Shown: positions 25,979 through 54,833 of the stretch, in pieces
Layout: each line of letters opens with the position of its first letter
Numbering within the stretch: the stretch's first letter is position 1
NCBI RefSeq assembly: GCF_004799345.1
Contig: NZ_SSMC01000001.1
Span: forward strand, 434,001 to 498,000
Reading direction: 5' to 3'
Source of the DNA: Robertkochia marina
Lineage (GTDB): Bacteria; Bacteroidota; Bacteroidia; Flavobacteriales; Flavobacteriaceae
Length of the DNA stretch: 64,000 bases
Translations under genes and position numbers: made by a program
The notes under the pieces: generated by a model
What the model was told of the DNA's origin: nothing
Seen by the model: the letters and a program-made list of their open reading frames with translations, nothing else
The model's database searches: none

Positions 25979-27877
25979 ATGAGTGACGCTATTAAACATG
26001 AATGCGGGATCGCACTAGTAAGATTACGTAAACCTTTAGAGTATTACCAGGAAAAGTACGGAACCGCATTTTACGGCATCAATAAGATGTACCTGATGAT
26101 GGAGAAACAGCACAATCGTGGTCAGGACGGTGCCGGTTTTGCCAGCATCAAAATGAATATGCTTCCCGGTGAGCGCTATATGAGCCGTGTACGCTCTAAT
26201 CAAGCCCAACCCATCCAGGACATTTTCCAGCAGATCAACTCCAGAATCAATGAGGTTTTACTGGAGCATCCCGAATACAAAGACGATGTGGAGGTTTTAA
26301 AGAAAAACATGCCTTACCTGGGCGAATTGATGCTTGGACACGTGAGGTACGGTACTTTTGGAAAAAACAGCATTGAAAGCGTTCACCCATTCCTTAGACA
26401 GAACAATTGGATGCACCGTAATCTTATCGTTGCCGGAAACTTTAACATGACCAATGTTAATGAGCTTTTCGACAACCTGATCAGACTTGGGCAGCATCCA
26501 AAAGAAAAGGCTGACACCATCACGGTAATGGAGAAGATCGGTCATTTTTTAGACGATGCCGTTGCCAAGCTTTACAAGGAAGTTAAAAAAGAAGGGTATT
26601 CTAAAATGGAAGCCTCCCCTATCATTGCCGACCGCCTGAACGTTGCGAAAATTTTAAGGAGAGCAGCGAAAAACTGGGATGGCGGCTATGCCATGGCCGG
26701 ACTAATTGGTCATGGAGATGCCTTTGTTTTAAGAGACCCAGCCGGTATTCGTCCGGCGTATTACTACCAGGATGAAGAAGTAGTGGTGGTTGCATCAGAA
26801 CGACCCGTAATTCAAACGGTATTTGATGTAGAATTTGACACCGTTAAAGAATTGGACCCCGGAAAGGCCATTATCATTAAAAAAGACGGCAGTGTAAAAA
26901 CCAAGAGAATCCTTGAACCTCTTGAGCGCAAGGCCTGTTCTTTTGAAAGAATATATTTTTCAAGAGGGTCAGATGCTGAGATCTACCAGGAACGTAAAGA
27001 CCTGGGGAAATTACTTTTCCCGAAGATCCTGGAAAGCGTAGATCAGAACCTTGAGAATACGGTATTCTCTTATATTCCAAATACAGCAGAAACGTCTTTC
27101 TACGGGATGGTACAGGAGGCTCAAACCTACCTCAATAAGAGAAAGGAAGAAAAAATTCTGGCCGGAAAAGAAACGCTCACACCTGAAGAACTGAATAAAA
27201 TTCTCAATATGCGACCCCGAATTGAAAAGGTCGCCATTAAAGATGCTAAACTGAGAACCTTTATTACAGAAGACAGCAGCAGAGACGACCTGGTTGCCCA
27301 CGTATATGACATTACTTACGGTTCAGTAAAACCCTCAGACAACCTGGTTATCATAGACGACAGTATAGTCAGGGGTACGACTCTAAAGAAGAGTATCCTA
27401 AGAATATTAGACAGACTGCACCCAAAACAGATCGTGGTAGTTTCTTCTGCACCACAGATCCGATACCCGGATTGCTACGGTATTGACATGGCCCGCCTGG
27501 AAGACCTTGTTGCCTTTCGTGCAGCCCTGGAACTTCACAAGGACAGAGGCACCTATTATAAGGTTGATGAAGTTTACGAGAAGTGCCTGGCCCAGGTAGA
27601 CTTTGAAGACAAAGAAGTAGTTAATGCCGTTAAAGAAATTTACGAACCTTTTACTGACGACGAGATCTCAGAAAAAATTTCGGAGATCCTGGCTCCTGAA
27701 GGTATTAATGCCGAGGTCAAAATTCTTTATCAAACGGTTGACAACCTGCACAAAGCGTGTCCGCACAATCTTGGAGACTGGTATTTTACAGGAGATTACC
27801 CGACTCCAGGAGGAAACCGCGTAGTTAACAGGGCTTTTATCAACTTTTATGAAGGAATAAAAGAACGGGCTTATTAA
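25979..27877 (+). CDS. Long amidophosphoribosyltransferase (PurF-like) with N-terminal glutaminase
   Basis: The 632-residue protein is a class II glutamine amidotransferase joined to a phosphoribosyltransferase. Glutaminase motifs are Cys9 (HECGIALV), NRGQDGAG (46-53), HVRYGT (121-126) and LRDPAGIRP (251-259). The PRPP motif VIIDDSIVRGTT is at 457-468. Canonical PurF makes phosphoribosylamine for purine synthesis and is about 470-510 residues. This one is over 100 longer, with extra sequence around residues 165-215 and 380-430 and at the C-terminus. Cys9 must be exposed by removal of eight residues. It may be a second, specialised PurF, since many Bacteroidota carry two. Confidence 0.85.
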   Translation: MSDAIKHECGIALVRLRKPLEYYQEKYGTAFYGINKMYLMMEKQHNRGQDGAGFASIKMNMLPGERYMSRVRSNQAQPIQDIFQQINSRINEVLLEHPEYKDDVEVLKKNMPYLGELMLGHVRYGTFGKNSIESVHPFLRQNNWMHRNLIVAGNFNMTNVNELFDNLIRLGQHPKEKADTITVMEKIGHFLDDAVAKLYKEVKKEGYSKMEASPIIADRLNVAKILRRAAKNWDGGYAMAGLIGHGDAFVLRDPAGIRPAYYYQDEEVVVVASERPVIQTVFDVEFDTVKELDPGKAIIIKKDGSVKTKRILEPLERKACSFERIYFSRGSDAEIYQERKDLGKLLFPKILESVDQNLENTVFSYIPNTAETSFYGMVQEAQTYLNKRKEEKILAGKETLTPEELNKILNMRPRIEKVAIKDAKLRTFITEDSSRDDLVAHVYDITYGSVKPSDNLVIIDDSIVRGTTLKKSILRILDRLHPKQIVVVSSAPQIRYPDCYGIDMARLEDLVAFRAALELHKDRGTYYKVDEVYEKCLAQVDFEDKEVVNAVKEIYEPFTDDEISEKISEILAPEGINAEVKILYQTVDNLHKACPHNLGDWYFTGDYPTPGGNRVVNRAFINFYEGIKERAY

Positions 27878-27978
27878 TGGTTTTGTCATAAGCAAACGTC
27901 GACATGCATTTTATCGGATTATTTTGCGCTTTATCCGATTATTAATATTTATCCCACCCCATGACATTATCTTTATGT

Positions 27979-28052
27979 CACCATAGCATAAGTAGGTTAA
28001 GTTCATGGTAAGATTTGGGGCAAAAAAGGTAGATCATTGATCTGCCTTTTTT
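27979..28052 (+). ncRNA. Small-RNA-like unit 1 (diverged terminator)
   Basis: It has the invariant 43-nt head, six A, then a hairpin GGTAGATC / GATCTGCC where the other units have GGCGGATC / GATCCGCC. One pair is A-U instead of G-C and one is U-G instead of C-G, so pairing is kept. TATCTTTA ends four bases before the head. The upstream -33 region does not match the other units, and the spacer after it is unrelated to the rest. Confidence 0.75.
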
Positions 28053-28444
28053 ATTTTATACCTATTCCAAAAACAAGGATCATTCGAGCCTCTCTCAATC
28101 AATTTCCCTTTCTAAGCTATTATCCCTGACCGGCTAAAAACCTATTACCTGAAAAGCGAACCTTGTACAGGATTGAAAAGGATCAAGGCAAACCACAAAA
28201 AAGAATTGATACATAAATAAAATTCGGACCAATAAGCCAGGATCATTAAGGGTTAATACTCCACATTACTACATCAACCAATCTCTTTTAATGCACTTAT
28301 AAAAACAAGCAGAAATGAATCATGTATGCACTTCAAACCTTACAACATATTGGCCACTCCGAACCATATAAAACAACTCACCTAATTAAAGTGCTTTTCA
28401 CCCCATTACTTTTAACAGTGCTATCCTTACATATACATTTATAC

Positions 28445-28516
28445 CACCATAGCATAAGTAGGTTAAGTTCATGGTAAGATTTGGGGCAAAAAGGCGGATC
28501 AATGATCCGCCTTTTT
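28445..28516 (+). ncRNA. Small-RNA-like unit 2 (five-A type)
   Basis: Invariant head, five A, hairpin with loop AAT, then T5. The -7 box is TACATTTA and CTTTTAACAG lies 19 nt further up. Its upstream DNA is more diverged than that of units 3-8 but the promoter-like blocks are kept. Confidence 0.8.
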
Positions 28517-28627
28517 ATTTACGACACTTCTACAACACTCCCTTTAAGTCCCTGATTTACAATTCTTTAGAAAATAACCGAAAAACACTACACGACTGTA
28601 TTTCAACTAATTAACACGCCTTTTACC

Positions 28628-28669
28628 CCTTTACTTTTAACAGCAAATTCCTACCGCATACTTTTATAT
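28628..28669 (+). promoter_or_regulatory. Representative promoter of the small-RNA units (unit 3)
   Basis: CTTTTAACAG (28634-28643) is followed after about 19 nt by TACTTTTA (28659-28666), and the conserved RNA head starts at 28670. This matches the Bacteroidota promoter layout with A for the last G of TAnnTTTG. The same two blocks at the same spacing precede units 2 to 8; unit 1 keeps only the -7 block. The predicted start of transcription coincides with the start of perfect conservation. Confidence 0.6.
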
Positions 28670-28742
28670 CACCATAGCATAAGTAGGTTAAGTTCATGGT
28701 AAGATTTGGGGCAAAAAAGGCGGATCATTGATCCGCCTTTTT
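28670..28742 (+). ncRNA. Small-RNA-like unit 3 (six-A type)
   Basis: Invariant head, six A, hairpin GGCGGATC / GATCCGCC with loop ATT, then T5. TACTTTTA sits four bases upstream. Confidence 0.8.
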
Positions 28743-28895
28743 ATTTACGACAGTTCTACAACCCTCCCCTTAAATCACTGATTTATAATTCTTTGATATT
28801 TACCAGGAAAGGTCTACATAACTGAATTTCAACTAATTAAAGCGCTCTTTAACCCTTTACTTTTAACAGCAAATTCCTACCATATACTTTTATAT

Positions 28896-28968
28896 CACCA
28901 TAGCATAAGTAGGTTAAGTTCATGGTAAGATTTGGGGCAAAAAAGGCGGATCATTGATCCGCCTTTTT
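28896..28968 (+). ncRNA. Small-RNA-like unit 4 (six-A type)
   Basis: Invariant head, six A, loop ATT, T5. The 153-bp spacer after it is identical to the spacer after unit 5, a sign of recent duplication. Confidence 0.8.
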
Positions 28969-29121
28969 ATTTACGACAGGACTACAATATAAATCTTAAA
29001 TGACTGATTTACTATTCTTTAGCATTTAACAGAAAAGCACTACACGACTGTATTTCAACTAATTAAAGCGCTCTTTAACCCTTTACTTTTAACAGCAAAT
29101 TCCTACCATATACTTTTATAT

Positions 29122-29193
29122 CACCATAGCATAAGTAGGTTAAGTTCATGGTAAGATTTGGGGCAAAAAGGCGGATCAATGATCCGCCTTTTT
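29122..29193 (+). ncRNA. Small-RNA-like unit 5 (five-A type)
   Basis: Invariant head, five A, loop AAT, T5, with the same promoter-like blocks upstream as unit 6. Confidence 0.8.
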
Positions 29194-29346
29194 ATTTACG
29201 ACAGGACTACAATATAAATCTTAAATGACTGATTTACTATTCTTTAGCATTTAACAGAAAAGCACTACACGACTGTATTTCAACTAATTAAAGCGCTCTT
29301 TAACCCTTTACTTTTAACAGCAAATTCCTACCATATACTTTTATAT

Positions 29347-29418
29347 CACCATAGCATAAGTAGGTTAAGTTCATGGTAAGATTTGGGGCAAAAAGGCGGA
29401 TCAATGATCCGCCTTTTT
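29347..29418 (+). ncRNA. Small-RNA-like unit 6 (five-A type)
   Basis: Invariant head, five A, loop AAT, T5. It is identical to unit 5 over the unit and over the DNA upstream. Confidence 0.8.
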
Positions 29419-29571
29419 ATTTACGACACTTTTACAACCTCTCCCTTAAATCACTGATTTACAATTCTTTAGATGATAACAGAAAAACACTACACGACTG
29501 TATTTCAACTAATTAAACCGCTTTTCAACCCTTTACTTTTAACAGCAAATTCCTACCGCATACTTTTATAT

Positions 29572-29644
29572 CACCATAGCATAAGTAGGTTAAGTTCATG
29601 GTAAGATTTGGGGCAAAAAAGGCGGATCACTGATCCGCCTTTTT
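29572..29644 (+). ncRNA. Small-RNA-like unit 7 (six-A type, ACT loop)
   Basis: Invariant head, six A, hairpin with the unique loop ACT, T5. Only the loop differs from units 3, 4 and 8. Confidence 0.8.
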
Positions 29645-29797
29645 ATTTACGACAAGACTACACTTATGGCTTCAATTAACTGCTTTACAAATCTTCAGCG
29701 AATAGCAGAAATTAATTACACCGCTGTATTTCAACTAATTAAAGTGTTTTTCAACCCTATACTTTCAACAGCAAATTCCTACCACATACTTTTATAT

Positions 29798-29871
29798 CAC
29801 CATAGCATAAGTAGGTTAAGTTCATGGTAAGATTTGGGGCAAAAAAGGCGGATCATTGATCCGCCTTTTTT
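29798..29871 (+). ncRNA. Small-RNA-like unit 8 (six-A type)
   Basis: Invariant head, six A, loop ATT, T6. It ends 22 bp from the stop of the minus-strand Gfo/Idh gene. Because the A run reads as T on the other strand, its hairpin can also end that gene's transcript. Confidence 0.8.
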
Positions 29872-29893
29872 ATTTTTCTATATCTTAACTTCA

Positions 29894-31312
29894 TTACGTA
29901 AGTGATGTACCCAACTTCCATCCATCCCGATAAGAACCATGAACCCACTCATTGGCCTTTTCGAAATTTACAACCCGCATAGCTTCTCCATCCCATATCA
30001 ACTTTTTACGACCGGGATAGGTATAGTAGTCTCTATTTTTCCCTTCTTCCAAAACCTTATACTGAAATGATCTTATTGCCAGGTTCCCCATAAGAACAGC
30101 CTCAGTAAGCTTACCTCCATAAGAGAAAGGAGATGAGGTATCTCCTCCTTTCAGGATCCCATTAATCCAATTTCGTGCATGATCTTCTTTTTGTCTTTTT
30201 ATATAGCGTTTAGGGAAATCACCCACGCTGTTTTGATAGGCCTTCAGTATCCGCGGATTTCGAGAATAGGTATCACTCACGGCCACCCCCTTCTCACCGT
30301 AAAAGATGCTTCCCCCTGCAGGGTCACCAATGGTTTCTTCAGGAGATAATAATTCGGGTATCTCAGGCAAAATACCCCCATCGTACCAATTAACTTCCAC
30401 CTCACCATGCATCTCTGATCTGAATTTCAACCGGACCACGGAAGATGGAGGACAACCATCTGTACGAGGCGATTCTACGAAATCGCCTGACCAAACTGTT
30501 GTACAGCTGGCTTCTGCTTCTAACGGATATCCTAACCCGAGTGACTTAAAGGGGGATTCCAGAATATGGCATCCCATATCACCGAGAGCCCCGGTACCAA
30601 AATCCCACCAGCCTCTCCATCTAAAAGGAAGATAAGCCCTGTTATAGGGTCTCATAGCTGCAGGACCAAGCCATTGGTCCCAGTTAAGAGATTCCGGAAT
30701 TTCCTGCTTTTCAACATCCAAACCAAGGCCTTGGGGCCATACCGGACGATTTGTCCAGCAATCTACCCGGTTCACCTTACCCAGAACCCCGCTTTCCATC
30801 CATTCTGTAAGGGTACGTATCCCATCTCCGGAACTTCCCTGGTTCCCCATCTGAGTTACAAGATTCTTTTCGGCTGCAATTTCCTGCATAAGCCTGGCTT
30901 CCCTGATATTGTGGGTCAAAGGCTTTTCTACATAGGCATGTTTACCCTCCATCATAAAAGGAATTGCTATAGAAGCATGGGTATGATCTGGGGTAGCCAC
31001 CATGATCCCATCGATCTCATTAAGGTGATTATCATAGACCGCTCTAAAATTGCTGTACCGTTTTGATTCCGGAAAATTTGCATAGGTATCAGCTGCCCTG
31101 ACATCATCCACATCACAAAGTGCTACAAACTTCACTCTTTTGGTATCATCAAGAGCACTGATAACATTCGAACCACGACCACCAACACCGAAAGCAGCCA
31201 GATAAACCGTATCACTGGGGGGAACATGCTTACCACCCAACACATGGGCAGGAACAATATATAAACCGGCCGCACCGGTACTAACATTCTTTACAAAGGA
31301 TCTTCTATTCAT
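29894..31312 (-). CDS. Tat-exported Gfo/Idh/MocA family oxidoreductase
   Basis: The 472-residue protein starts with a twin-arginine signal (NRRSFVKNVSTGAAGLYIVP). It continues with a Rossmann segment (AAFGVGGRGSNVISAL, about residues 34-49), CDVDD, ATPDHTHASIA and the catalytic EKPLTHN. The C-terminal half has WRGWWDFGTGALGDMGCHILE. This is the large, exported Gfo/Idh type common in Bacteroidota and Planctomycetota, which bind their cofactor before export and act on sugars in the periplasm. It stands alone, divergent from the radical SAM gene. A link to the keto-glycoside operon at 10-18 kb is possible but unproven. Confidence 0.9.
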   Translation of the reverse strand: MNRRSFVKNVSTGAAGLYIVPAHVLGGKHVPPSDTVYLAAFGVGGRGSNVISALDDTKRVKFVALCDVDDVRAADTYANFPESKRYSNFRAVYDNHLNEIDGIMVATPDHTHASIAIPFMMEGKHAYVEKPLTHNIREARLMQEIAAEKNLVTQMGNQGSSGDGIRTLTEWMESGVLGKVNRVDCWTNRPVWPQGLGLDVEKQEIPESLNWDQWLGPAAMRPYNRAYLPFRWRGWWDFGTGALGDMGCHILESPFKSLGLGYPLEAEASCTTVWSGDFVESPRTDGCPPSSVVRLKFRSEMHGEVEVNWYDGGILPEIPELLSPEETIGDPAGGSIFYGEKGVAVSDTYSRNPRILKAYQNSVGDFPKRYIKRQKEDHARNWINGILKGGDTSSPFSYGGKLTEAVLMGNLAIRSFQYKVLEEGKNRDYYTYPGRKKLIWDGEAMRVVNFEKANEWVHGSYRDGWKLGTSLT

Positions 31313-54759: not shown

Positions 54760-54833
54760 TCCTCCTTAGCTCAGTTGGTTAGAGCATCTGACTGTTAATC
54801 AGAGGGTCCTTGGTTCGAGCCCAAGAGGGGGAG
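54760..54833 (+). tRNA. tRNA-Asn (anticodon GTT)
   Basis: The 74-nt sequence folds as a full cloverleaf: acceptor TCCTCCT / AGGGGGA, D-arm with TAGCTCAGTTGGTTAGAGC, anticodon loop CTGTTAA and T-arm CTTGG-TTCGAGC-CCAAG, discriminator G. The 3' CCA is not encoded. A promoter lies upstream and a terminator directly downstream. Confidence 0.97.

Follow-up and report, generated by a model that had tools for sequence, protein, structure and literature searches.

What is encoded by a row of short, nearly identical repeats that stand between two protein genes of Robertkochia marina? The question is raised by a stretch of 64,000 nucleotides (nt) of this species (assembly GCF_004799345.1, contig NZ_SSMC01000001.1, positions 434,001 to 498,000), called the window below, in which eight direct-repeat units span positions 27980-29871 of the forward strand. 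The family concerned, Flavobacteriaceae, is prominent in the sea, in soil and in association with fish, and few of its small RNAs (sRNAs) have been characterised. We regard it as probable that the units are the tandem genes of an Hfq-free, multicopy, trans-acting sRNA family of Flavobacteriaceae that is placed under an activator; the case that they form an RNA gene family, as drawn from sequence evidence, is very strong. The original prediction for this locus, a multicopy sRNA locus in which each unit has a Bacteroidota-type promoter box and a terminator hairpin, is supported by the same kind of evidence.

Eight putative sRNA genes in tandem

The predicted RNA runs from the A of ACCATAG to the end of a T tract and is 71-73 nt long in all eight units. 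Unit 1 lies at 27980-28052 (covariance match 27980-28051), and units 2 to 8, each located both by repeat pattern and by covariance match, lie at 28446-28516, 28671-28742, 28897-28968, 29123-29193, 29348-29418, 29573-29644 and 29799-29871, all on the forward strand, with a start-to-start spacing of 466, 225, 226, 226, 225, 225 and 226 nt. From the likely start, the layout of a unit is ACCATAGC, ATAAGTAGGTTAA, GTTC, ATGGT and AAGATTTGGGGC, followed by an A tract, a GC hairpin and the T tract. The identical head of 43 nt that had been read in the eight units was borne out, as 47 letters from the start A, together with the C preceding it, are the same in all of them. When a 26-nt head pattern was searched through the 3.58-Mb genome with up to 3 mismatches, eight matches were obtained on the forward strand, all in the array, and none on the reverse strand or with the control pattern.

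Over the 100 nt upstream, units 5 and 6 are identical and units 3-8 agree at 78-100%, which we read as a sign of recent tandem duplication behind units 3-8. Unit 2 agrees with these at 58-61% and unit 1 with the others at 31-37%, in line with the earlier remark that the flanks of units 1 and 2 have diverged. Conserved flanks around a head that is not conserved, the arrangement held by the original prediction to speak against an sRNA locus, are the reverse of what is seen, for the head is invariant and the flanks diverge. The interval 27878-29893 contains no listed reading frame of 60 codons except frames overlapping its edges.

Distribution among Flavobacteriaceae

Of 397 genomes of the same family, 137 contain a 35-nt core at up to 3 mismatches and none contains the reversed pattern, so that a chance origin is excluded. 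By pattern, four congeners have 5-7 copies each, and a scan of named genomes returned at least 120 loci with the core, among them loci in Maribacter, Zobellia, Muricauda/Allomuricauda, Flagellimonas, Robiginitalea, Eudoraea, Arenibacter, Cellulophaga, Kordia, Galbibacter and others. In the covariance search of flavobacterial genomes that had been proposed as a check on the head, a covariance model (R2) built from 116 matches and used with a cut-off of E up to 1e-4 matched 195 of 239 Flavobacteriaceae genomes (193 of 235 genera; 171 of 200 good-quality genomes), while the other 44 genomes gave no match at E 1e-4 under strict filters, which does not prove absence. Carrier genomes have 1-8 copies, and the genome of the window has the most. 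In a phylum-wide sample of 247 genomes, model R2 gave 23 matches, all in the family, and none in about 220 Bacteroidota outside it, the family share of this sample being taken as 27 genomes (the 23 matched and four listed without a match).

An earlier model (model 1) was seeded from six equal-length units because a MAFFT alignment of 59 units misaligned the terminators; relatives were aligned to the model afterwards. With E up to 0.01, it matched 53 of 246 genomes in an order-wide sample, 33 in the family and 20 outside. The outside-family matches all fall between 1.6e-4 and 0.009 and every match below 1e-5 is in the family; we take these 20 as chance. Some model matches at E 3e-5 to 1e-3 are symmetrical terminators read from the opposite strand. 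Model 1 also revealed diverged forms of the unit. One of them, ACCATAACATTAGTAGGTTAAGTTTATGGTAGATTTGGGGC, belongs to species of g128, the genus with the most samples, and we guess this genus to be Flavobacterium. In addition, an array at L031:787-1146 on the reverse strand contains three relatives of the unit that are shortened to 58 nt (44-45 bits) and lie about 150 base pairs (bp) apart; they are perhaps decaying or specialised copies.

Structure and conservation of the predicted RNA

Folding of five of the eight units gave z values of -3.3 to -5.1. The predicted fold consists of a 5' hairpin, an unpaired linker (AAGAUUUGGGG) and a terminator; the linker and the 13-nt loop of the hairpin (AUAAGUAGGUUAA) are both near-invariant. 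Conservation was measured over 281 units from the named loci, which remained of 292 after the removal of redundancy (leaving 283) and of two units that exceeded 6 mismatches; one part was gathered by an exact 24-mer, which inflates conservation within that 24-mer for at least one copy per locus, and the remaining copies of each locus were collected at up to 8 mismatches. Most core columns carry 1.9-2.0 bits; the weaker ones are, near the 5' end, the start purine, the T and the G of CCATAGC and, further on, a C/T column ahead of ATGG and the final G. Upstream of the core, the information is 0.03-0.26 bits in columns 20-39 and 0.24-0.65 bits in columns 40-45, with the -7 box conserved between. 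The core is nearly fixed across relatives while spacers and terminators drift.

In a structure-aware alignment of 150 matches (117 distinct), 98.9% of the cells are paired over both helices, the matches being fitted to the structure of the model, which favours that structure. Changes on both sides are present in 12 of the 13 terminator pairs; the corresponding mean of shuffled alignments, taken over the whole structure, is 7.8. Pairing in the 5' helix is complete (100%), with four of its eight pairs varying on one side only and four never varying. A strict terminator scan of the window array returned 2 sites (shuffles, mean 1.0); we think that so few were obtained because the T tract pairs with the A tract in the other units.

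Chromosomal address and unit subtypes

The left neighbour of the array, at 25979-27877 on the forward strand, is a conserved flank in relatives, and is called purF-like here because its best NCBIfam match, purF at 128 bits, falls under the 350-bit cut-off. The right neighbour, at 29894-31312 on the reverse strand, is a GFO/IDH/MocA oxidoreductase gene, at a place where most of the relatives read have a superoxide dismutase (SOD) gene, sod. The statement that no protein gene lies nearby was thus mistaken, since the purF-like gene stops at 27877, 103 nt ahead of the first predicted sRNA start, and the oxidoreductase gene ends 23 nt beyond the last terminator.

Among 120 listed named loci (10 left and 12 right sides cut by an edge; SOD assigned by Pfam), the purF-like gene is on the left in 100, SOD on the right in 92 and both in 77. 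These 77 loci contain one copy (22 loci), two (4), three (27), four (16), five (6) or six (2). In the order-wide loci, of which the window is one, the purF-like gene was present in 30 of 30 and SOD in 26 of 30. The array is thus a positional orthologue, set between the purF-like gene and superoxide dismutase in most of the loci read, with the oxidoreductase in place of sod in the window and in Galbibacter.

Four subtypes of the unit are told apart: A by GGGGC, B by GGGGA or similar, C by GTTTATGG..GGGA and F by the loss of one A behind ATGGTA, which affects 65 of 495 distinct units. All eight units of the window are of type A, and type C is absent from it. The string of types, readable in 115 of the 120 listed loci, some of them edge-cut, is A (31 loci), ABC (31), ABBC (18), BC (10), ABBBC (5) or one of eight rarer ones; wherever A, B and C occur together, A is first and C last. 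The parts of the array are retained where its surroundings have been rearranged: in Arenibacter, three records have the purF-like gene with A-B and two others have B-C with sod. Genome G212 has two unit pairs on separate contigs. Split arrays were observed in Arenibacter (L082 and L054 versus L143, L150 and L158) and in Allomuricauda zhangzhouensis (L050 and L140), the A or A/B copies staying by the purF-like gene and the B/C copies by sod. Single ectopic B-like copies, each with its own promoter box and terminator, were observed away from both of these genes at L114:5175-5244 (reverse strand) and L118:4296-4363 (forward strand).

These observations bear on several other explanations of the units. 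With neighbours so constant, the RNA could be a cis element of the purF-like gene or of sod, either as a product of a 3' untranslated region (UTR) or as a shared terminator; the symmetrical terminator matches weakly on the other strand and could stop a convergent sod transcript. However, the copies carry promoter boxes, and the arrays survive the replacement of a neighbour (in the window and in Galbibacter) or splitting between the neighbours (in Arenibacter), so that we consider a cis element very unlikely. More improbable still is a DNA repeat that is not transcribed (binding or recombination sites) or a mobile repeat. Tandem, near-identical units and the ectopic copies of L114 and L118 would be expected of such a repeat, but the promoter box of the units keeps its position, their terminator stem changes on both sides of its pairs, their chromosomal place is fixed across genera, and all copies lie on one strand in 120 of the 120 listed loci. 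Collections of phages, plasmids and viral contigs gave no match to the units, and on these points the mobile repeat was rejected. Least credible of all is that each unit encodes a leader or micro-peptide from the core ATG (MVRFG...): ATG GTA AGA TTT GGG is present in most copies, but the frame enters the variable terminator, and in type F the frame is altered while the other core letters stay. We rejected the peptide because the sole ATG frame is shifted wherever this nucleotide is missing (65 of 495 units).

Promoters and a candidate activator

The -7 box of unit 1, TATCTTTA, lies at 27968-27975 on the forward strand, at a position that is conserved over the 281 units of relatives, and those of units 2-8 start at 28434, 28659, 28885, 29111, 29336, 29561 and 29787 on the same strand. 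A TAnnTTTA box is present at a fixed place in all eight units, as predicted; its placing four bases before the head did not hold, since it ends three bases before the head as read there, the four bases being those that separate the box of unit 1 from the likely start A at 27980. Likewise, the upstream motif CTTTTAACAG, attributed to units 2-8, is exact in units 2-7 and reads CTTTCAACAG in unit 8, and its distance from the TAnnTTTA box is 15 nt rather than the 19 nt given. In Flavobacterium psychrophilum, TAnnTTTG is placed at -12 to -5 in the available part of the report (PMC9723704), and the RNA would therefore start on the purine of RCCATAGC. A sigma-70 scan of the array, which is no test of a Bacteroidota promoter, returned 4 promoters versus 8.1 in shuffles.

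Further upstream, two direct-repeat boxes 21 bp apart precede unit 1 (TTTTATCGG and TTTATCCGA, 27909-27938) and unit 4 (TTTCAACTA and TTTAACCCT, 28827-28856), and the left boxes before units 3, 5, 6, 7 and 8 start at 28601, 29053, 29278, 29503 and 29729, all on the forward strand. A weaker pair before unit 2, with 2 mismatches in a box, starts at 28376 on the same strand; seven of the eight units carry the pair at no more than one mismatch per box. Expectation-maximisation on non-redundant upstream regions of types A (60 of 115), B (60 of 93) and F (42 of 42), each type separately, recovered a TTTCATC-like box at two places, one near -53 and the other near -74, with a log-likelihood of 390-530 versus 58-70 in shuffled sequences. 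When both boxes were allowed at most one mismatch, with a gap of 19-21 and the left box at -76 to -66, the pair was counted upstream of 62 of 125 type A, 79 of 116 type B, 20 of 47 type F and 6 of 75 type C units and of 25 of 1547 ordinary genes; the box definition is drawn from the same data, so that the fair comparisons are type C and the wrong gaps, which gave 5 (A), 2 (B), 3 (F), 5 (C) and 22 (ordinary) for gaps of 23-25 and 1, 0, 3 and 1 (A, B, F and C) for gaps of 15-17. With such a pair of direct repeats, 19-21 bp apart, ahead of the -33 region in many copies, a shared activator may be proposed.

The copies in relatives are not all equivalent, as they differ in promoter subtype. Type C promoters lack the box pair and have a conserved CTTTGTTATTTC-CACAATACCAGTAATTTAGT instead, which suggests a second regulator. 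A 30-nt region upstream of type C (TTTGTTATTTC-CACAATACCAGTAATTTAGT; for example in L055, L131 and L257) was observed to be far more conserved than the corresponding regions of types A and B.

LytTR-type activation of the sRNA copies is a good lead. LytTR operons have paired 9-bp direct repeats with spacers of 11-13 bp close upstream of -35, as far as the available part of the source describes them (PMC6193735), and the array likewise has two boxes about two helical turns apart, upstream and near -35 (here -33). LytTR domains were found in 55 of 60 family genomes, and the five genomes free of them are all among the 15 of 60 without the sRNA (Fisher p = 5.5e-4; p = 0.019 within genomes of up to 2.8 Mb).

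Partner proteins and targets

Hfq (PF17209) was found in none of 60 family genomes, with 5 of 14 control genomes positive, and no protein with RRM_1 (PF00076) was obtained from the 60 at E up to 1e-5, while a Bacteroides control gave a match; accordingly, neither the usual matchmaker nor a partner of the FopS type is seen. The same counts raise the question of which protein is the general RNA chaperone of Flavobacteriaceae. Action in trans is likely, and we favour pairing with messenger RNAs (mRNAs) over titration of a protein. The latter explanation, in which the RNA mainly binds or titrates a protein as a CsrB- or 6S-like decoy, with tandem copies giving dose and no mRNA pairing, is in our judgement unlikely, though much less so than a cis element. 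Nearly the whole core, including both strands of the stem, is kept, which goes beyond the needs of a seed, and the searches for complementary targets found none; however, no motif is repeated inside one unit, no candidate partner emerged, Hfq and RRM_1 proteins were not found in the 60 genomes and the units match no known RNA family at its threshold.

Several results weigh against a trans-acting sRNA family under a LytTR-type activator. The proposed pairing of the loop or the G-rich tail with targets drew no clear support from the searches for complements. In target scans, which covered 864 kb of the 3.58 Mb of the own genome with 650 start regions, all eight exact matches to the complement of 12 loop letters are the array itself, and the extended complement has one non-array site in the own genome as against 3 control matches. 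Complementary 7-mers near start codons are not clearly enriched in the own genome or in four other samples, the expectation coming from dinucleotide shuffles: observed versus expected numbers are 62/54.8 (own), 33/22.9 (G032), 38/32.4 (G157), 25/23.6 (G143) and 24/20.9 (G025) for the loop and, in the same order, 50/52.4, 26/22.5, 21/14.3, 17/18.2 and 26/21.0 for the linker. The mild excess in G032 and G157 is unproven. A larger excess of stem-letter 7-mers in the own genome is, we think, the ATG context lost in shuffling; it is also present in G025, where no sRNA was found. On the side of the activator, about half of the upstream regions of types A and F are without the box pair, further two-box sites in five congeners number 41 outside the arrays versus 64 for the reversed control, the half-site letters fit the LytTR consensus partly, by eye, and the co-occurrence of LytTR domains with the sRNA is confounded by genome reduction and kinship, so that the argument for LytTR comes down to the geometry of the sites. 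Finally, the transcription of the units is something we infer, and the 5' helix, having no double-sided change, offers consistency and not covariation; a constraint at the level of protein or DNA may act on this invariant hairpin.

Individual candidate targets were considered and set aside. A hunt by exact 12-nt loop complement in 60 relatives was tried and rejected. In duplex energies over the 650 start regions, 10 sites as strong occurred in 0 of 30 mononucleotide shuffles for linker and core and in 3 of 30 for the loop, an excess that speaks for pairing; the resulting gene set was discarded, since the best genes look functionally mixed and mononucleotide shuffles take account of neither stacking nor the fixed ATG context. 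A long antisense-like site at 636892 of contig C1 was dismissed in view of the 3 control matches, and the non-array sites of congeners all have at least 2 mismatches. Start regions of neighbouring genes were scored against mononucleotide and dinucleotide shuffles; of 40 dinucleotide shuffles, those reaching a value as low numbered 0 for the purF-like gene, 1 for a pfkB-like gene, 2 each for UvrD, Kbl and OmpA, 8 for SOD and 31 for FabF. The purF-like gene was rejected as a target, because its 0 of 40 seems to result from a GCCCC...GGGGC terminator-like hairpin, which 11 of the 14 start regions read contain and the other 3 lack. Such a hairpin with a T tract was observed about 20-40 nt before the purF-like gene in 11 of 14 loci (L039, L045, L052 and others); it would leave little room for a promoter and could be either a pfkB terminator or an attenuator. 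Base-pairing of the array RNA with mRNAs may thus involve few or imperfect sites.

Comparison with known RNAs

The original prediction had recognised no family, and a search of Rfam 15 agreed: no family reached its gathering threshold on the units, in the array or in the loci of relatives. The best sub-threshold match in the array has E = 0.019 and lies on the opposite strand. Elsewhere in the window, a transfer RNA gene at 54760-54833 on the forward strand is the sole Rfam match at gathering score. No description of the core string or the sRNA was found in the titles and beginnings of abstracts of the literature searched, in which few subscription journals are covered.

LhrC of Listeria, Qrr of Vibrio and the Cia-dependent sRNAs of Streptococcus come from other phyla and are not known to be related to the array RNA in sequence, and some are under a shared response regulator. 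The induction of lhrC1-5 by heme is reported to run through LisR. The activator of the array RNA, by contrast, is proposed from DNA geometry alone. What these families, which are named in PMC11697453, have in common with the array RNA is that each is multicopy, with copies that resemble one another in sequence. According to the part of the same source that was available, FopS of Bacteroides is likewise a multicopy sRNA family of Bacteroidota with canonical promoters and no small open reading frame, its copy number is thought to matter for dose, and it represses SusC mRNAs (PMC11697453). In contrast to the array copies, which stand in tandem between a purF-like gene and sod, the 14 FopS RNAs are described there as intergenic, antisense or derived from 3' UTRs, and they bind RbpB, an RRM protein (PMC11697453), whereas RRM_1 proteins were not found in the 60 genomes of the family of the array RNA. 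FopS is set apart by description, and model R2 has no match in the Bacteroidota sampled outside the family.

Rfp18 of F. psychrophilum resembles the array RNA in being conserved among flavobacteria, with base-pairing proposed; in the available part of the report, its pairing region is a third stem-loop and its conservation is at the level of the genus (PMC9723704). The array RNA, with two stem-loops and a family-wide distribution, is set apart from it by that description, and may be one of the 85 Rfp RNAs of F. psychrophilum. The Flavo-1 RNA (RF01705) is, in the part of its description available, also a motif widespread in Flavobacteriaceae, but the sRNA units have no match to it. A copy of Flavo-1 was observed by the sRNA array of one g128 genome (L200:2520-2606, reverse strand); it has the orientation of sod and precedes that gene by about 200 nt. 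Multicopy sRNAs are known as a kind, and the array RNA appears to be a new and unusually conserved example.

A model for the array and its meaning for the family

In the model that we favour, an Hfq-free, trans-acting sRNA family, each gene would have a transcript of its own, begun at the purine of RCCATAGC under a TAnnTTTG-type promoter and ended at the hairpin of that gene. The resulting RNA of about 71-73 nt would display the loop AUAAGUAGGUUAA and the unpaired linker AAGAUUUGGGG before the terminator, and would act in trans through short pairing of loop and/or linker with mRNAs, or through binding of a protein, in either case without Hfq or an RbpB-like RRM protein. An activator, most likely of the LytTR type, would probably switch the box-bearing copies on together, and the type C copy on the sod side, with its different conserved promoter, would therefore receive a different input. 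Tandem duplication would set the dose, and control of dose by copy number is plausible for a range of 1-8 copies.

A bolder version is an RNA with two inputs, in which many LytTR-fired copies and, in many genera, a sod-proximal copy on a second signal serve, without Hfq or RRM proteins, a core regulon as old as the family. We put this forward tentatively and would sooner expect it to fail than to hold. If it is true, two inputs feed one nearly invariant RNA. About four fifths of the sampled genera have the core with hardly a letter changed, as a rule at one address, and its role is thus probably a general one. The array offers a mostly single, deletable locus at which to ask how post-transcriptional control works in Flavobacteriaceae, together with a concrete lead to the upstream switch.

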